Shown piece by piece: positions 1 through 27,960 of a DNA stretch of 41,648 bases (its first letter is position 1; every line of letters starts with the position of its first letter). Source of the DNA: Armatimonadetes bacterium CG2_30_59_28 (GTDB taxonomy: Bacteria; Armatimonadota; Abditibacteriia; CG2-30-59-28). The stretch lies in the NCBI GenBank assembly GCA_001872605.1, contig MNXM01000284.1, positions 1 to 41,648 of the forward strand, in the 5' to 3' direction. The position numbers and the translations under genes are program-made. The notes under the pieces were generated by a model that ran no database searches, had not been told where the DNA came from, and worked only from the letters and a program-made list of their open reading frames with translations.

Positions 1-284
1 TCAAACCCCCTGATTCGGAAGGTCTCCACGGCGAGATAAAGAACGTACACACCTCCCGCGAGAGAGATGACACCGAGGATGTTCTCGTTGTGGGCGGCGC
101 GGCTGAGGAGCAGCAGCGACGCGGCGATGATCGGCAGGTCGGTCATCAGCGGAGCGACGGCCACCTTCACACCTTCCTTGAGTCCGTGCCTCAAGGTTTG
201 CGTGATGACGAGCGTCGACAACGGCCCCGGCGAGAACCCCGCCGTCAACCCCATCACGATACCGGCAAGAAGTGAAGAGAGCAT
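1..284 (-). CDS. LysE/RhtB-family amino-acid exporter, N-terminal part (cut by window edge)
   Basis: The minus strand from the ATG at 284 is open to the window edge (94 codons). The protein starts MLSSLLAGIVMGLTAGFSPG, followed by PLSTLVITQTLRHGLKEG. This is the N-terminal signature of the LysE/RhtB/CadD translocators: a first hydrophobic helix, a Gly/Pro turn (SPGP) and the amphipathic T.TL..G...G segment. Two further hydrophobic helices follow (about residues 45-64 and 70-88). The family has about 200-210 residues and six helices, so a little over half is missing beyond position 1. Known members export amino acids or related small solutes across the inner membrane; the substrate cannot be told here. 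The start is chosen because the family motif begins about 15 residues after this Met; no strong ribosome-binding site is visible. Family assignment is good, function generic. Confidence 0.82.
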   Translation of the reverse strand, partial: MLSSLLAGIVMGLTAGFSPGPLSTLVITQTLRHGLKEGVKVAVAPLMTDLPIIAASLLLLSRAAHNENILGVISLAGGVYVLYLAVETFRIRGF

Positions 285-777
285 TGTGAGCGACCACCAA
301 GTCGAGAACAGGATACAGGATATCACGTCCCGCCTTGCCGTGGTGTAGTGAGCACAACGCCGGTCATACCAGACCGTTCTTCGCCCCACTTCTCCCGATT
401 GGCGTACTCAATCCCCGCGCACCACCCCTGCGGACCTATCCCACCAAACCGACATCCGAAATCCGCATTTCCACGGGAGAGGGTTAGCCTGCCCCGACAC
501 CTCGGTTGGGGTGAGGTCCCACCGCCTGCAAATAAATCTTCTGCGAACCCTTGACACATCAATTCCCTTTCACATAAAATCACCGCCGCAGCATTTCATC
601 GCAGCAACAATCGCAGCCGTCGTTTTGTGTAGCAACGATCGCAACGATCACACTGATCGCAACGATCGTGTCGGCACCTTCCGGTCCGGCGCGAGAAGAA
701 TCTTTCGTTCTCTGATTTCTTGATGCCAATGGGGCGCCCTCATAATGGGCGGCATCCGTGGCAGGAAGAGGTTCACG
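285..777. other. Long gene-poor stretch with short repeats
   Basis: No convincing coding sequence on either strand: the open frames here have arginine/proline-rich translations without recognisable motifs. The 13-mer GATCGCAACGATC occurs twice (637-649 and 655-667) with an 18-bp period. The last 60 bases hold the candidate promoter annotated separately. Confidence 0.6.
720..751 (+). promoter_or_regulatory. Possible promoter upstream of the (CT)12 leader
   Basis: A CATAAT box (741-746, one mismatch to TATAAT) is preceded by TTGATG (720-725) at a short 15-bp spacing. A 5-bp dyad, CGCCC (735-739) and GGGCG (747-751), brackets the -10 box and could be an operator. It points at the ATG at 778. 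The spacing is suboptimal, so this is tentative. Confidence 0.3.
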
Positions 778-909
778 ATGCGCCTTAGAAGCTCACACGG
801 CGGCAGCCGCAAAACACCTCAAATAACCACCCTCCCCACGGGAGCGAGAAGAGACCTCTCTCTCTCTCTCTCTCTCTCTGTAAACGCGGCTGGTTTCCGC
901 CGTTCGTAG
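778..909 (+). CDS. Short leader frame through a (CT)12 tract; possible out-of-frame start of the M23 gene
   Basis: An ATG at 778 follows a strong Shine-Dalgarno (AGGAAGAGG, 6 bases upstream). As read, the frame encodes 43 residues, runs through the (CT)12 tract as a Leu-Ser repeat and stops at TAG 907-909. The M23/dockerin frame downstream is open from 789 but has no ATG, GTG or TTG before 1140, which lies inside the catalytic domain. Loss of one CT unit, or gain of two, would join this ATG to that frame. It could therefore be the 5' end of a phase-variable gene in its off state. Alternatively it is a chance frame and the M23 gene has a one-base frameshift near 965. The initiation signals and frame arithmetic are seen; the switching is inferred. 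Confidence 0.35.
   Translation: MRLRSSHGGSRKTPQITTLPTGARRDLSLSLSLSVNAAGFRRS
856..879 (+). repeat. (CT)12 dinucleotide tract
   Basis: Twelve uninterrupted CT units. Such tracts inside or just before a coding region are classic sites of slipped-strand mispairing. Here the tract sits between a well-placed start signal (778) and a frame lacking a start, and a change of one unit would restore the frame. Confidence 0.95.
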
Positions 910-962
910 GGAACGGGCGACGTAGCCGGATACTATTCCCCGTTTCCTGCACCTATCCAAAA

Positions 963-3263
963 TGGTGCGTCACCTTACTACTCCCCCTGCTACTCGTCAA
1001 TCCTTTTGCGGCCTATGCGAAGAGTAAGAACGCAAAAGGCTTCTATTACCCAACCGACACCGTTCTGAGCAACAACGGCAACTGGCTGGACACCGAATGT
1101 GATAATTACCTAACTGGAAAGTATCATCTTGGACAGGACGTGTGCCGGTCAATTGGTGATAAGGTTTACGCAGTGGCAGATGGCAAGGTTGTCAACGAGC
1201 AGCACGGCGGGAATGTAACAGAGAGCCAACTCATTTGGATTGAACACTGCGTTGATGGGGGGAAGTTCTATGCCATCTATGCTCATGTGAATCACTCAAA
1301 AAGGGTCGATGACGAAGTTAATGCTGGAGACGAGATTGCGACGGTCGCGGATTACTTAGGATCCTGTGACCATTTGCACTTCGGCATAAACCCCAACGGG
1401 ATCGTGACAACCAAGGTGAACGGCATTGGCTGGGGAGCCGGTCCCTTACCCGCAGATTGGGACTGCAATAATCAGGACAAGAGCAAGCTCGAGACGCGGG
1501 GGTTTGTAGCTCCATATGACTACCTGAATTCGCACACACCTTGCGGTGGTGGTGGTGGCACCACCTACACCGTGACTGTCCGCACGAAGGTAGACGGTGG
1601 GAGTTACAACGCTGCGGCGAAGTTGAGCAAGTGGGTGAACGATCATTGGGAGACTGTCCCGGATTGTGATTGGGCGACTACCCCCTATTCCAAGGGCGGC
1701 CTGCCCGCGGCGCGTTATCGTTGCGAATACGGCACCACGGTCCCTGGTGGCAACGTGCCGGCCTGGTACAACGTCCCGGCGGCGGAGGAACACGGCAGCC
1801 CCATCACCGGCGACTTCACCTTCGAGCAGGAATATCAGCGCAAGGACTGGTATGCTCGCTACATGGGCCAGAGCATTGATATGTCGCCCATGGTGCCTGG
1901 TGAGACGAGAGTCTTCAGGTACACCTTCCGGAACGAAGGGAAGAACGCCTGGGACCAAAATGTGCGCCTGGGCACCGTGAATCCTCAGAACCGCGACAGC
2001 GCCTTCTGCACCTCCGGCGACTGGATTTCCTGCGGCCGTCCGACCGCGGCAAACGAGAACCCGGTGAACGGCGGGGGGGCGGACGGCAACCTCGACTTCG
2101 TAGTGACCGCGCCTTGCACGCCCGGCCACTACGAGGAGCACTTCAACATCCTCTACGAGAACCACTTCTGGTTCGGTGGGGACAGCGGCGGCCAGGATGT
2201 CAGCTTCGCTGTGGACGTTGCCGCTCCCTCCGCCCCTTCCGCGCCCACCCTTGCCTCGCCTCAACCGGGTTCCTGCGGTGCCTCGCCCACGCTCACGTGG
2301 AATGCTGTCAGTGGCGGGCCGTGCGGCGGCACTGTCTCCTACTTCGCCGAAATCAAAGGGGCAAATCCACCAAACAACAGCCGTGATTGGATTACCGGCA
2401 GAAGCTGGACACCGACGGGACTTGCCCCGGGCGCAAATTGCACCTGGCGGGTGAAGGCGAAGTCCAACGTGGGCGAGAGCGCCTGGAGTGGGGAGTGGAC
2501 TTTTCATGTCAACCAGGCTCCCAACAAACCCACGCTGAGCAGCCCGGCGAATAACGCGTGTGTGGGCAGTCGCGCGGTGCAACTGTGCTGGAACGATGCG
2601 GGAGACCCGGACAACTGCCCCAGCGCGCGCACCTATCGCGTTGTCGTGCCGGGCGCTTTCGATCAGTCCGGCATTGCCTCCACCTGTCAGACTGTTACCG
2701 TCAATGCAGACGGAGCGTTCTCCTGGTACGTGCTGGCGTATGACGGTCAAGCGTGGTCGGCGGCAAGCGACACGCGGAGCTTTACGGTGGATGCCACCCC
2801 TCCCAACGCCCCCACCGGCCTCACCGTCGCTCCCGATCACTTCACGGCGACGCTTGCGTGGACGGCGCCGGTGGAGACGGGGTGTTCCGGGGTGGCGGGG
2901 TACAACGTGTACCGGAGACGCAATGGCAGCAGCGGATATGTGAAGGTGAATACCACGCCCGTGACGGGCGTGACGCACACCGACACCCTCGCCAACGGGG
3001 TGGCGTATGACTACGCCGTGGCCGCGGTGGATACGTTCGGACGGGAAGGCGCGAAGGTGGAGGCGACCAACAAGGTCATCGGCAAACCCGGCGACATGAA
3101 CGGCGACGGAGAGATCGATATTGCCGACGTCATCAAGTGCATTAATGTTATCAACGACCCCAACGCCAGCGCGGTGGACAAGGCGTTGGCGGACTACAAC
3201 CGGGATAACAAAGCCGACGCAGCGGATGTGGAAGCGATGAAGAAGGCGATTCTTGGAAAATAA
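963..3263 (+). CDS. Secreted M23 endopeptidase with NBR1-like, FnIII and C-terminal dockerin domains (start unresolved)
   Basis: About 766 residues counted from 963. A hydrophobic signal-like segment (VTLLLPLLLVNPFAAYA) is followed by an M23/LytM peptidase domain with its metal-site residues intact: HxxxD in YHLGQD (His at 1125, Asp at 1137), VYAVADGKV, YAHV, and HLHF (His at 1371 and 1377). A start at 1140 would delete the first His, so the real start is upstream. An NBR1-type Ig-like domain follows (about residues 299-422; N.G...W, ending WFGG), then FnIII-like domains (about 424-516, 517-611, 612-705) and a type I dockerin-like module (about 707-766) with loops DMNGDGEIDIADV and DYNRDNKADAADV. 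M23 enzymes cut peptide bridges in peptidoglycan. No start codon lies in frame before 1140: either a CT-tract phase switch (ATG 778) or a +1 error at ATGG 962-965 explains this. The 3' third is nearly identical in DNA to that of the gene at 8093. Confidence 0.8.
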   Translation, partial: WCVTLLLPLLLVNPFAAYAKSKNAKGFYYPTDTVLSNNGNWLDTECDNYLTGKYHLGQDVCRSIGDKVYAVADGKVVNEQHGGNVTESQLIWIEHCVDGGKFYAIYAHVNHSKRVDDEVNAGDEIATVADYLGSCDHLHFGINPNGIVTTKVNGIGWGAGPLPADWDCNNQDKSKLETRGFVAPYDYLNSHTPCGGGGGTTYTVTVRTKVDGGSYNAAAKLSKWVNDHWETVPDCDWATTPYSKGGLPAARYRCEYGTTVPGGNVPAWYNVPAAEEHGSPITGDFTFEQEYQRKDWYARYMGQSIDMSPMVPGETRVFRYTFRNEGKNAWDQNVRLGTVNPQNRDSAFCTSGDWISCGRPTAANENPVNGGGADGNLDFVVTAPCTPGHYEEHFNILYENHFWFGGDSGGQDVSFAVDVAAPSAPSAPTLASPQPGSCGASPTLTWNAVSGGPCGGTVSYFAEIKGANPPNNSRDWITGRSWTPTGLAPGANCTWRVKAKSNVGESAWSGEWTFHVNQAPNKPTLSSPANNACVGSRAVQLCWNDAGDPDNCPSARTYRVVVPGAFDQSGIASTCQTVTVNADGAFSWYVLAYDGQAWSAASDTRSFTVDATPPNAPTGLTVAPDHFTATLAWTAPVETGCSGVAGYNVYRRRNGSSGYVKVNTTPVTGVTHTDTLANGVAYDYAVAAVDTFGREGAKVEATNKVIGKPGDMNGDGEIDIADVIKCINVINDPNASAVDKALADYNRDNKADAADVEAMKKAILGK

Positions 3264-3276
3264 ACCGCACGCAGAG

Positions 3277-3351
3277 ACGCGGAGACGCAGAGAAGAAGTG
3301 TTCAGTAATCAGTAATCAGTATTCAGAAATCAGTTCTCTGCGGCTCCGCGT
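3277..3351. repeat. Imperfect inverted repeat flanking a TCAGT-rich loop
   Basis: Arms 3277-3294 and 3334-3351 are complementary over 18 bp with one mismatch, and enclose a loop of ATTCAGT/AATCAGT units. This is a shortened relative of the perfect element at 10235-10338, also located directly after a dockerin gene. Confidence 0.75.
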
Positions 3352-3883: not shown

Positions 3884-3930
3884 AGGATGCTGAAACCTGA
3901 CACCTGAAACCTGACACCCGAAACCCAAAC
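3884..3930. repeat. CCTGACACCTGAAA tandem repeat
   Basis: Degenerate tandem copies of CTGAAACCTGACAC just upstream of the first fibre-like gene. It is a low-complexity dispersed repeat of the same kind as the GTGTCAAGTGTCAA run near 7174-7197. Confidence 0.7.
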
Positions 3931-6432: not shown

Positions 6433-6546
6433 ATGACATGGATGCGACCTGGGGAGTCGAAGCTGCTGGGCGCGGCGCTGGGCAAGGCGCTGCAACCGCT
6501 GAGTTCAGGCAAGGGCGTGATCGAGGTGCTGGTGGTGCAGAAGTAA
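6433..6546 (+). pseudogene. Displaced C-terminal tail behind fibre copy 2
   Basis: Frame +1 relative to the fibre gene encodes MTWMRPGESKLLGAALGKAL, then QPLSSGKGVIEVLVVQK and TAA at 6544-6546. The DNA of the last 80 bases closely matches 11042-11125. The form (PGE..LLG.ALGKALQPL.SG.GVIEVLV) resembles C-terminal ends of intact bacterial surface/fibre proteins. It begins 27 bases after the stop of the tip, out of frame, as expected for an old C-terminus left behind by tip replacement. Confidence 0.65.
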
Positions 6547-6605
6547 TGGGTAGTTGGGTAATTGGGTAACTGGGTAACTGGGTAATTGGGTAATGGGGTG
6601 GGTAG
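6545..6605. repeat. GGGTAATTGGGTAACT tandem repeat
   Basis: About six imperfect copies of the 8-mer TGGGTAAT/TGGGTAAC directly after the displaced tail. Shorter runs of the same unit follow the tails of copy 1 (4767-4782) and copy 3 (11127-11155), so the repeat travels with the 3' end of the fibre unit. Confidence 0.85.
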
Positions 6606-7173: not shown

Positions 7174-7197
7174 AGTGTCAAGTGTCAAGTGTCAAGC
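7174..7197. repeat. GTGTCAA tandem repeat upstream of the second TA pair
   Basis: Three copies of AGTGTCAA in tandem. On the minus strand each contains TTGACAC, so they could provide -35-like or operator sequences for the antitoxin gene starting at 7148. Confidence 0.6.
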
Positions 7198-8092: not shown

Positions 8093-10231
8093 ATGAAACG
8101 AGAACGCAATAGTCTGTGGAAGGTAGCGGCGGCGATGCTGGTCGCTATGTGGACCGGGTGCGGCAGCACGTGGGCGCGAACACAGGTGTGCGGGACGGAT
8201 ATCGACAACTACTTGAGGAACAATGGCAACTACATGACCGGCACTGGCGCGGCGTATGTGAAGTGGGGGAAGTACTTCAATGTTGATCCCCGCCTAATGG
8301 TGGGAATCTCCAATGCCGAGAGCACTTTGGGGAAGACCCCATGCGGAACGAACGAAACCGGCACGTGGAACGCATGGGGATGGTTTGGCGGGATTGGGTA
8401 CTGTTGGCCTTACTTCGCCCCCGGATGGGACAGTGACTGTAATCGAGCGGAATTTGCTGACGCGCCTGGCTACGTGGCGGGCAAGGGCATCGAGATGGCA
8501 ACCGGCTGGGAGGATGGGATATTCTGGGTGACCCGCACAATCCGCAAGGAGTACCTGAATGCTGGATATGACACCGTAGCCAAGATCCGCCCCAGGTACT
8601 GTCAGAGCCGCTGTGAGAACTGGGAGAGCAATGTCAACGCTTCCCTCAGTGCATTGATCGGAGACCCGAACCAGCTCGACTTCCCGGGAGAAAGTTGCAC
8701 CGGTGACACCTCCCCTCCCTCCGTCGTCTTCACCAGGGAAGACGGCAAGGGCGGATGGACGAATGACCGGAACAAGGTTGTGGTCGAGTGGCGGATTGAG
8801 GATTCCGGAGGGAGTGGGGTCAAGGGGTTCCACCAGCGCTGGGATGAAACGACCCCAACGGATGACAATGTGCTGCAATCTTCTACCGGTTCCCTCAGCC
8901 TCGGTCAGCATCCGACTCTCACCAACGGTTGGCACACCGCCCACGTCCGGGGAAGGGACAATGCCGGCAACACGAGTGACGACAGGACTTCCGGGCAATA
9001 TGGTTTTGATGGCAGTCCGCCGACGGTGACGATCACCTCGGGTCATGTCAACGGCGGGACCTACAACTCACCGGGCCCGGTAACCTGGAGCCTCGCCGAC
9101 CCGCATTCAGGAGTGAAGGGCTTCGGTCAGGCATGGGACAGTGTTCCACCGTATCAGTTCAACACCGACACCGGGTGGCTGGACTTGCCGGAGGGTACGC
9201 ATACACTTCACGTACACGCCTGGGACAATGCGGGCAATGACAAAGACTGGACTTGGACGTTCACCTACCAGCCTCAAGGCACCCTCTCCGTCACCACCAT
9301 TAGCAACACGCAATGCGGGGTAAGCGGGCCGGTGTCTGTGGATGGGACCGCATGGGGCAATGCTCCGCAGTCGAAGAAGGTGAACACGGGCAGCCATACC
9401 GTCAGTTTCGGCGCGGTGTCGGGCTACAACACACCGGGGAACCAGACCGTGACTGTGAACAAGGACCAGACGACGAACGTGTCCGGCAAATACACCGACA
9501 CCACCAATCCAATCATCAATGTCACCGCGCCGGCGGTGAATACGTGCCTGCCGCCTCTGCAGACGGTTTCATGGACTACGACCGATATTTGTACCGCCGG
9601 ACTGACGGTGCAATATTCCTGGGATGGCGGGACTTTCCAGACCACAAGTCTGTCTGGCAGCCTCACCGTGCCGGATGGGACTCACACCCTCAAGCTGAAG
9701 GGCACGGATGCGGCGAGCAACATGGGTGATATCACGGTGGGGCCGTTCATCGTTGACACCACCCCTCCCGCCGCTCCCACCGCGCTCACCGTCACTCCCG
9801 AGCATTTCAAGGCGACGCTGGCATGGGCGGCGCCAGCCGCTGATGGCGGTTGTTCGGGTGTGGTGGGGTACAACGTGTACCGCAAGCGCAATGGCAGCGG
9901 CAGTAATGCGAAGGTGAACACCACGCTCGTGACGGGCGTGACGCACACAGACACCCTCGCCAATGGAGTGGCGTATGACTACGCCGTGGCCGCGGTGGAT
10001 ACGTTCGGACGGGAAGGCGCGAAGGTGGAGGCGACCAACAAAGTCGTCGGCAAACCGGGCGACATGAATGGGGATGGGGAGATTGATATTGCCGACGTCA
10101 TCAAGTGCATCAATGTCATCAACGACCCCAACGCCAGCGCGGTGGACAAGGCGTTGGCGGATTACAATCGCGACAACAAAGCCGACGCGGCGGATGTGGA
10201 AGCGATGAAGAAATTCATATTGGGGAAATAG
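8093..10231 (+). CDS. Secreted glucosaminidase/lysozyme-fold protein with Ig-like, FnIII and dockerin domains
   Basis: 712 residues from the ATG at 8093; an adjacent TTG at 8090 is possible. The signal peptide ends near TGCGSTWA; the Cys at WTGC is a poor lipobox. Residues about 30-200 form a lysozyme-like domain: GAAYVKWGKYFNVDPRLMVG, SNAESTLGK with the likely catalytic Glu76, NAWGWFGG, and a late EDGIFWVTRTIRKEYLNAGY. This layout matches bacterial endo-N-acetylglucosaminidase (GH73-like) domains that cut peptidoglycan glycans. Ig-like repeats follow (about 203-306 and 306-393, with RDNAGN/WDNAGN), a PEGA-like segment (394-470), another Ig-like domain (471-556), FnIII (557-650) and a dockerin-like C-terminus (653-712; DMNGDGEIDIADV, DYNRDNKADAADV). 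It complements the M23 enzyme: glycan-strand versus peptide cleavage. The upstream ribosome-binding site is weak. Confidence 0.8.
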   Translation: MKRERNSLWKVAAAMLVAMWTGCGSTWARTQVCGTDIDNYLRNNGNYMTGTGAAYVKWGKYFNVDPRLMVGISNAESTLGKTPCGTNETGTWNAWGWFGGIGYCWPYFAPGWDSDCNRAEFADAPGYVAGKGIEMATGWEDGIFWVTRTIRKEYLNAGYDTVAKIRPRYCQSRCENWESNVNASLSALIGDPNQLDFPGESCTGDTSPPSVVFTREDGKGGWTNDRNKVVVEWRIEDSGGSGVKGFHQRWDETTPTDDNVLQSSTGSLSLGQHPTLTNGWHTAHVRGRDNAGNTSDDRTSGQYGFDGSPPTVTITSGHVNGGTYNSPGPVTWSLADPHSGVKGFGQAWDSVPPYQFNTDTGWLDLPEGTHTLHVHAWDNAGNDKDWTWTFTYQPQGTLSVTTISNTQCGVSGPVSVDGTAWGNAPQSKKVNTGSHTVSFGAVSGYNTPGNQTVTVNKDQTTNVSGKYTDTTNPIINVTAPAVNTCLPPLQTVSWTTTDICTAGLTVQYSWDGGTFQTTSLSGSLTVPDGTHTLKLKGTDAASNMGDITVGPFIVDTTPPAAPTALTVTPEHFKATLAWAAPAADGGCSGVVGYNVYRKRNGSGSNAKVNTTLVTGVTHTDTLANGVAYDYAVAAVDTFGREGAKVEATNKVVGKPGDMNGDGEIDIADVIKCINVINDPNASAVDKALADYNRDNKADAADVEAMKKFILGK

Positions 10232-10234
10232 GAG

Positions 10235-10338
10235 CTCACGCGGAGTCGCGGAGCCGCGGAGAAGAAGTGTTCAGTGTTCAGTAATCAGTATTCAGTATTC
10301 AGAAGTCAGTTCTCCGCGGCTCCGCGACTCCGCGTGAG
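10235..10338. repeat. 29-bp perfect inverted repeat with TCAGT loop
   Basis: Arms 10235-10263 and 10310-10338 are exact reverse complements over 29 bp. The 46-base loop is built of TTCAGT/AATCAGT units. The element starts 4 bases after the dockerin gene's stop and ends 21 bases before the next fibre gene. It may act as a transcript-end hairpin or recombination site. A degraded copy is at 3277-3351. Confidence 0.95.
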
Positions 10339-12073: not shown

Positions 12074-15000
12074 ATGAGACGATACTCTGTTCTGTTGAGC
12101 CTGACGGTTCTGGCGGTCACAGCTCTTACAGGGCGTGCCAACGCCGAGATGCCTGCCGGCGCGGCGACGGCGGGTGGCGTGGTGGCGCTGCCGGGCGGTG
12201 GCGCGGGTGGTTTCGCGGGTGCATTGGGCCAGTTGGCAATTGGGCACTCGGACGATGGCACAATCTGGAGCGGGTTGATTACGCCGGATGGACTGCCCGC
12301 CTCGTATCAGTCTGAGATATCCATCCCCTCAGACCTGACGGCCACTCCGGGGGCCACGGTGTCGATCCCCATCTATCTCAAGGGACAGTCCCCCTTTGCC
12401 GGCGCGCAGGCGTTCATCGGATTCCAGTCGAGTGTGCTGTCGTTTGTGAGCATCGCCAAAGGATCGCTCATCGCCTCCGATGCGGACTGGATTGTGGAAG
12501 CGAACGTGGTCAATGGGAATCAGTTGCGGCTGATTGCGTATCCGGGGATGACATCGAAGACCGTATCACCCGATCCCACCAAGCCCCTGGCCGTGGTGCA
12601 GATGCAGGTGAGCGCGTCCGCCACTCCCGGCAGCACGATGGATCTCACCTTTGCGCGGATCACCAAAGCGGTTGCCCGGAATGGCGATACGCTGCCACTG
12701 CGATGGTTGAATGGTAAGGTGAAGATTGGCACGCCTCGCCCCGACCTGCTGATCAAGAAGGACTCCGAGGCAGACACTGCCTTTGCGATCAACGATGTGT
12801 ACCAGACGAGTCCTTCCGGAGACCAGATTGAGACTCAGACCACCGATGCGAACAAGGCCGCAGCTTTCCATGTGAAGGTGCAGAACGATGGCGACGCGGC
12901 GCAAACGTATTTCCTGAAAGCCACGGAGAGCGATGGGGCGGGTTGGACCATCACGTACAAACTCCTGCCTTCGCAGGAAGACATCACCGACAAGATGCGA
13001 GCCGGGTACACGACCCCGACGATCAATATCGGGGAGAGCGTGGTGATCGTTGTCCAGATGACACCCGCCACTACCGTCGCAGGGGGAAACAGCAAGAGCG
13101 TGACCATCGCTGCGGTTGGGAATGCCGCAGACACGCAGGTCAAAGACGCGGTGATGGCGACGGCAACGGTTGGTGTCTATTCCATCTCCGGTATCGTCAC
13201 CCTCAACGACACCACCGATGCTTCCGGTGTGAAGGTGGAAGCAGGCGGCAAGTCGGTGACGACACTCGCGGACGGGAAGTATACGATTGGAGGTCTCGTC
13301 TCCGGCACGTACCCGGTGAAGGCCAGCAAGGCGGAATACACCTTCACCGACCAGAACGTGACGCTCGGCCCGGATAAGACCGAAGTTAACTTCACAGGAA
13401 CGCGGAAGACCTACTCCATCTCCGGCACGGTGACTCTCAACGACACCGCCGATGCTTCCGGCGTGAAGGTGGAAGCAGGGGGCAAGTCGGCCACAACGCT
13501 TGCGGACGGGAAGTACACGATCACCGGTCTGATTCCCGGCACGTACACGGTGAAGGCGACCAAGGCGGAATACACGTTTGCCCCTGCGACGATGAACGTA
13601 ACGGTGGGACCCGTAGGTCAGACAGGCGCCAATTTCACAGGCACCCGCAATACCTACTCCATCTCCGGCGCGGTGACTCTTAACGACACCGCCGACGCTT
13701 CCGGCGTGAAGGTTGAAGCGGGTGGCAAGTCCGTCACCACCATTGCGGACGGGAAATACACGATCGGTGGTCTCGTCTCCGGCACGTACCAGGTGAAGGC
13801 CAGCAAGGCAGAATACACGTTCACCGACCAGAACGTGACCCTCGAACCGGACATTACCGGAGTCAACTTCGCGGGAATGCGGGTTACTCCCGACCTCCTT
13901 ATCAAGAAGACTGCGGAGACGGACACGGCGTATCAGATCAACAACGTCTATCAGACTTCGCCTTCGGGAGATCAGACCGAGAAAGACGAAGCCCCACCCA
14001 AGGCGAGCGCGTCTTTCTCGGTCAAGGTGGAAAACGATGCGACGGTCGCACGCGCGTTCGTTCTAAAGACGGAAGCGTCATCCGAGGCGGGATGGACCGT
14101 TGTCTACAAGAGCGGCACGACGGACATAATGACCCAGATGGTGAGCGCGTCGGGCTACACGACCGGCAGCCTCGCCCCGGGAGGCAGCCAGGTTGTGACC
14201 GTGGATATGACACCGGATTCGAGCGTGATCGGAAGTACCTCCAAGAGCGTCACCATCAAGGCGTTCCTCGACAGCTCGGACACAAGGGTGCGTGACGCGG
14301 TGATGATGACAACCACGGCAAAGGTGGTGGCTCAGCCCGACGCTCTCATCAAGGAATCCGGGGCGCCGGATGCGGAGTATCAGATTAACGATACCTACCA
14401 GCCTACACCCACAGGCGGGCAGATTCTGCAGCGGAAGGTACAGCGGAACAAGACGGTGGCTTTCAGCGTGAAGGTCGAAAACGACGGGAACACCGATCGT
14501 GGTTTTGTCCTGAAGTTGCAGGTGACAACCGAAACCGGCTGGACCGTAGTGTACAAGTCTGGAACTACGGACGTTACTTCCTCAATCACGCAGTCAGGCG
14601 GTTATCCGACGAAGACGTTGTCTCCCAGGGAGGCGGAGACTATCACTGTGGAGATGACTCCCAGTGCGCGGCTCAGTAACGGCAGCACGAAGAGCGTGAC
14701 CGTGAACGCCTTTCTGGATAGCTCGGACAGCGCCGTCCGCGATTCAGTGAAAGCGATCGGGGAGGTTACCGGAGCATCCCCTCCGACAATCGCGAGCATT
14801 ACACCGAATGAAGGTGCAAACAACCAGGCGGTGGATATCACAAACCTGTCGGGAGGCGGATTCCAGCCCGGCGCGGCGGTGAAGCTGAAGAAGGAGGGAC
14901 AGAGCGATATCAACGCCACCGAGGTGAAGGTGATCTTGTCGACGAAGATTACGTGCAAGTTCGACCTCCAGGGAAAGGCAACGGGATTGTGGAACGTGGC

Positions 15001-27770: not shown

Positions 27771-27960
27771 AAGGGGATAGGGAGATAAGGGAGATGGGGA
27801 TTTCAGAAGGCAGTTTTCGGCTTGAGTCGGAACAACCTTGTATGGGCATCTCCTTATCTCCCCGATCCCCACAATCTCCCCTCTTACACCCTCTGAACAC
27901 CGAGAACTGAACACTGAATCCTGAACACTGAACACTGGTCCCACCGGAGGTATCTGAACC
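27771..27960. repeat. Imperfect palindrome and ACTGAACACTGAA repeats between genes
   Basis: Arms 27774-27800 (GGGGATAGGGAGATAAGGGA type) and 27843-27870 are imperfect reverse complements. They are followed by tandem GAACACTGAA units (27896-27936), of the same character as the TCAGT loops elsewhere. No gene is seen. Confidence 0.7.

Follow-up and report, generated by a model that had tools for sequence, protein, structure and literature searches.

A putative phase-variable (CT)12 switch at the 5′ end of a predicted secreted M23 cell-wall hydrolase gene in an environmental Armatimonadota genome

A pure CT repeat separates a possible start codon, ATG 778, from an intact reading frame for a predicted exported M23 hydrolase that has no start codon of its own. 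This locus is read as a putative phase-variable secreted hydrolase gene caught in its OFF state, which would be ON at 11 or 14 CT units, and a probability of roughly 0.5 is assigned to this reading. In the proposed mechanism, the repeat at the 5′ end of the hydrolase gene would be hypermutable, with slipped-strand mispairing altering the number of units. At the present 12 units, ribosomes starting from ATG 778 would stop at 907 and no hydrolase would be made, while at 11 or 14 units their translation would continue across LSLSL-CKRGW and on into export signal and enzyme. The coordinates of the features are collected in Table 1, where positions refer to the window, i.e., the whole stretch of 41,648 nucleotides that was analysed.

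Table 1. Features of the window that bear on the putative switch and on its paralogous copies (C followed by a number denotes a contig of the same genome).
Feature	Position	Strand	Basis
5′ part of a LysE-type translocator gene, running off the contig	1..285	-	LysE match in Pfam for the complete copy (C172)
Sigma-70-like promoter TTGACA-18-TAAAAT (11/12)	551..580	+	One match, against 0.2 expected from shuffles
SD-like AGGAAGAGG, six bases, ATG 778	763..780	+	~8% by chance
43-codon frame, putative OFF-state product	778..909	+	Frame reading
Open but start-less frame for an M23 metallopeptidase with beta-sandwich/fn3 domains and a dockerin type I at the C-terminus	789..3263	+	Frame reading, Pfam
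Leader segment kept in paralog C133	814..848	+	p ≤ ~0.002 against dinucleotide-shuffled sequence
(CT)12 repeat that may act as a slippage switch	856..879	+	Repeat search, shuffles, genome count
TCTCTCTCTCTGTAAACGCGGCTGG, common to C133 (24/25) and partly C98 (868-888, 21/21)	869..893	+	
Hydrophobic segment, AYA-type cleavage site	963..1022	+	Sequence reading
M23 catalytic core, HxxxD codon 1125, HxH codon 1371	1122..1401	+	Pfam, structures, residue check
C-terminal-half paralog with dockerin (57% identity, 324 aa), lacking an M23 domain and starting at a normal ATG	8094..10231	+	

The repeat between ATG 778 and the start-less M23 frame is, base for base, the (CT)12 described in the original prediction. 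A tract of this length arose in 0 of 100 shuffles of the window and is therefore not a product of chance; in the 5.49-Mb genome it is the sole CT/AG tract of more than 6 units, and also the sole one of at least 10, with just one other site reaching 6 units. The frame of ATG 778 (shared by an upstream ATG at 745) encodes 43 amino acids, enters the tract and meets a TAG stop at 907-909 beyond it. Stops at TAG 786-788 and TAA 3261-3263 delimit the hydrolase frame, and a codon scan of the whole frame from 789 found no ATG, GTG or TTG upstream of GTG 1140 (only ATA 930 and CTG codons). Translation from GTG 1140 would lose the first zinc-binding histidine (HLGQD), whose codon is 1125. The two frames are joined at 11 or 14 CT units and not at 12 or 13, so that the loss of one unit or the gain of two would fuse them, and each of these frame relations had been correctly anticipated. 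Thus, features expected of a contingency locus occur together here, namely a pure repeat beyond chance length, a frame that shifts against an upstream start whenever the unit number changes and an intact downstream ORF; the shift is reckoned from ATG 778, whose identity as the real start is uncertain.

The hydrolase ORF remains intact over 824 codons, for which the chance of staying open under relaxed constraint is ~4e-9. The M23 domain scores 49.8 bits against a Pfam gathering cut-off of 28.7 and the C-terminal Dockerin_1 domain 35.7 bits against 22.9; fn3 likewise exceeds its Pfam cut-off, while an NBR1-Ig match is sub-threshold. All zinc ligands of the two catalytic motifs are kept, and the hydrophobic segment ahead of them reads as a signal peptide or an anchor. 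Relatives of the M23 domain with solved structures include the lytic endopeptidase 8s3m and the M23 peptidase 9gy1, with which the catalytic domain shares HxxxD and HxH, whereas the window protein adds fn3/Ig-like and dockerin modules as well as an out-of-frame 5′ end. The product is thus predicted to be an exported, dockerin-tailed cell-wall hydrolase of the M23 (endopeptidase) type, and its presumed bacteriolytic activity is deduced from the family.

Signals for expression are present upstream of the tract. The sigma-70-like promoter match at 551-580 reads into both the tract and the M23 gene, and an SD-like AGGAAGAGG at 763-771 is followed, after six bases (ttcacg), by ATG 778-780. This start signal had been described as strong; the SD-like motif and its distance from the ATG are as claimed, but the strength is not borne out, because an SD-like motif with an ATG within 100 nt has an ~8% chance of occurring in sequence of the same composition. 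ATG 778 is therefore a suggestive rather than a strong start signal. Between the promoter match and ATG 778, four tandem GCAACGATC units occupy 632-668.

A codon signature in the hydrolase frame is present from 963 onwards, and none was found in any frame of 778-962. The leader just 5′ of the tract, which ends in ...CGGGAGCGA, is conserved as DNA with the paralogous contig C133. Conservation of the 778 frame (778-855) at the protein level was considered and rejected, as its similarity to the upstream part of C133 is not significant (p 0.79). The non-coding character of 778-855 is what would be expected if the tract acted within a 5′ untranslated leader, whether by setting the spacing, by altering how efficiently translation proceeds or by serving as a regulatory site shared between loci (CTCTCTCTGTAAACGCG), with translation from a non-canonical start. 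Such a role would also agree with the 5′ UTR tracts of some relatives (L138, L147, L110) and with contig C98, in which a 6-unit tract and GTAAACGCG stand in front of an unrelated gene. Nevertheless, it is very improbable, since no in-frame ATG, GTG or TTG occurs from the tract to the catalytic histidine, C133 has this sequence within an ORF that is in frame, and the leader has no match in Rfam.

Further evidence on the reading frame comes from the paralogous copies in the genome. Positions 1-457 of the window are 98% identical to C133 (LysE-type gene), after which the sequences diverge; C133 nevertheless carries TCTCTCTCCCTGTAAACGCGGCTGG, matching window 869-893 at 24/25 positions, inside a homologous M23-type ORF. 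The homology of the N-terminal/M23 region is significant (p<0.001), and tblastn similarity runs on upstream of 963 to ~804, through the tract in the hydrolase frame. In C133, the shared post-tract segment reads as ..NLSPCKRGW.., which is the hydrolase frame, and both a tract-adjacent ATG and TTG 557 share that frame. The hydrolase reading frame should therefore begin at or before the tract, given that the same post-tract sequence is in frame with upstream starts in C133. The distance from TTG 557 to the Cys codon of CKRGW is 99 nt in C133, and that from ATG 778 in the window is 101 nt at 12 units and 99 nt at 11.

The tracts of the three copies (12 units in the window, 6 in C98 and an interrupted (CT)3CCCT in C133) do not represent allelic variation, and that of C133 should be stable because it is interrupted. 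At the LysE segment, two different flanks meet on the left (C172 and C333) and two on the right (C205 and C133), which suggests that the loci in the window and in C133 are probably two genomic copies; strain alleles of one locus are accordingly disfavoured. A search for close orthologs of the locus within its family, class and phylum gave none, which counts against the phase-variable reading. As a separate observation, the 25-bp segment of CT tract plus GTAAACGCGGCTGG (window 869-893, L068 646-670, L069 14856-14876) is conserved far beyond its surroundings, perhaps through recombination or as a site. CTCTSTGTAAACGCG was also considered as a conserved element in relatives and was rejected, its matches being about as many as those of a reversed-pattern control.

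Another rival is a consensus or assembly artefact, in which the deposited number of units would be wrong, or a single base inserted or lost around 962-975, and the gene would ordinarily be expressed from an ATG close to the signal peptide. An ATG at 962, directly before the hydrophobic segment, is out of frame by one base, and the locus of this draft MAG contig sits at an assembly fork of near-identical copies. The original prediction had itself named a one-base error near 962-966 as a possible refutation; such an indel would indeed put an ATG beside the signal peptide, but it is not needed, as homology to the coding frame of C133 extends upstream of 962 (CKRGW at 96% DNA identity). With no SD before 962 and a 24-bp tract well within read length, an artefact is distinctly unlikely.

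The comparison with C133 also weakens the case for ATG 778. Doubt over the start of the window gene arises mainly because the ATG directly before the tract in C133 is absent in the window (GTAGAATGAATCTCTCTCCCTG in C133 vs GAAGAGACCTCTCTC in the window). The strongest rival to the phase-variable reading is therefore a decayed contingency locus, in which the ancestral start was lost from this position, no tract length would restore normal expression, the tract would be left over from a former switch and ATG 778 would be there by chance. With 12 units present, the window shares its phase with C133 from GGGAGCGA to CKRGW (39 nt in the window, 30 nt in C133), tblastn similarity crosses the tract in the hydrolase frame, and the other two copies are degenerate, C98 being short and C133 split. 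The splitting element in C133 is MITE-like (~237 bp, L068 945-1181), with perfect 19-bp terminal inverted repeats CTCGACTGTTGTGATTTGG. A 2.5-kb ORF free of stops and with all catalytic residues implies, however, that any such loss was very recent, and the tract is preceded by a strong promoter match as well as by an ATG with an SD-like motif. Decay is thus unlikely, although it has to be weighed seriously. The phase-variable reading, and with it the contingency-locus architecture of the original prediction, draws on the in-frame paralog, the intact 2.5-kb ORF with its zinc ligands, the near-consensus promoter and loci of the same anatomy in ON and OFF states across the phylum. It stops short of proof, the start codon being uncertain because the tract-adjacent ATG of C133 is absent in the window and 778-855 has no coding signature.

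The phylum-wide comparison covered 291 Armatimonadota genomes, with one genome per species. CT/AG tracts of at least 8 units (in the form searched) were rare, being found in only 17 of the 291, and tracts of at least 10 units in 16, and 29 tracts were classified. A tract was assigned to the 5′ end of an ORF when a frame of at least 150 codons left the tract and reached upstream of it by at most 60 codons. This held for 17/29 tracts, compared with 18.4% of positions drawn at random from these loci (p=1.7e-6), and, where a hydrophobic export segment was also required, for 10/29 against 9.2% (p=1.7e-4); these values are to be read with the definition having been fixed after the first examples were seen and with the loci not being fully independent, as paralogs and homologs are included (three in G252, two in G139 and the hsdS pair). 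In this set, ORF 5′ ends are thus favoured positions for the tracts, and loci in the ON state occur alongside others that are OFF. AC tracts, taken as a control, are rarer (7 sites) and mostly lie away from gene starts.

Individual loci resemble the window in anatomy. A single genome (G252) holds three paralogous short secreted proteins (L144, L148, L149), each with the order ATG-(AG)8-10-signal peptide, one in frame (ON) and two out of frame (OFF), which makes the trio a clean candidate for a small phasome. Two further loci (L139, L141) are in frame, with an ATG, a CT tract and then an export segment, and in three others (L130, L146, L105) the upstream ATG is out of frame with an intact exported ORF (OFF). 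In the hsdS genes of two genomes (G114 and G149; L107, L109), (AG)11 and (AG)19 occupy the same site and the second Methylase_S domain is out of frame, marking them as candidates for phase-variable type I restriction specificity. The spacing in the window counts against the likeness: the distance from start to tract is usually 6-45 nt in the other loci, with the signal peptide directly after the tract, vs 78 nt and ~90 nt, respectively, in the window. Most of the tract-linked secreted proteins received no family assignment from Pfam. Apart from the CT/AG set, a genome of the window's own class (G003, L159) carries (AC)14 at ~1500-1527, after an SD and ATG and in frame with an exported TPR protein.

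Other repeats also occur in the window. Intergenic arrays of 7-8-bp units (TCAGTAA, CTGAAAC, GTAATTGG, AGTGTCA and others) are located at 3302-3334, 3890-3925, 6543-6599, 7174-7196, 10266-10310 and 27893-27937, and resemble the short tandem repeats of cyanobacteria. At 13177-13882, a 243-bp unit occurs three times in tandem and encodes carboxypeptidase-regulatory-like domains of a 1234-aa protein.

On these grounds, it is tentatively proposed, with a confidence a little short of even, that scattered Armatimonadota carry a phasome of dinucleotide contingency loci, in which tracts of CT or AG, and possibly of AC, shortly downstream of the start codon would randomly switch exported proteins and type I specificity subunits. 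In the window, the target would be a secreted, dockerin-tailed cell-wall hydrolase, with bet-hedging over a bacteriolytic or wall-remodelling activity. To our knowledge, work on phase variation by simple sequence repeats (SSRs) has been confined almost entirely to host-adapted pathogens. If secreted-protein and hsdS genes of a deep, little-studied environmental phylum begin with slippery tracts, the known range of bet-hedging would widen, and a random switch on a secreted wall hydrolase, if true, would be an unusual target. A limited literature search for phase variation with Armatimonadetes or Armatimonadota found no paper (an absence that is not proof of novelty), and a 2025 review does not mention the phylum (PMC11868660). 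The switch is thus of a known kind and apparently unreported in Armatimonadota.

Among known systems, hsdS is a classical phase-variable gene, and the anatomy of SSR-switched hsdS genes is matched by the (AG)11/(AG)19 hsdS of the two Armatimonadota genomes, a likeness that concerns relatives and not the window. The opa genes of Neisseria carry CTCTT repeats in the signal sequence; they share with the window a repeat in leader codons and a translational frame switch of surface proteins, and differ in having a pentamer repeat, a multigene family and demonstrated switching. Phase-variable methyltransferases are treated elsewhere (PMC5149525, PMC7394358). In Helicobacter pylori oipA and sabA, CT repeats in the 5′ coding region (in oipA, the signal peptide) switch an exported protein by frameshift (PMC10564699, PMC4081817), so that the likeness extends to the dinucleotide itself, its place near the 5′ coding end and the ON/OFF switching of an exported protein. 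However, oipA and sabA are adhesins of a host-adapted pathogen whose variation and expression have been demonstrated, whereas the window holds a predicted hydrolase with a longer pre-tract leader, known from the sequence of an environmental Armatimonadota MAG alone.
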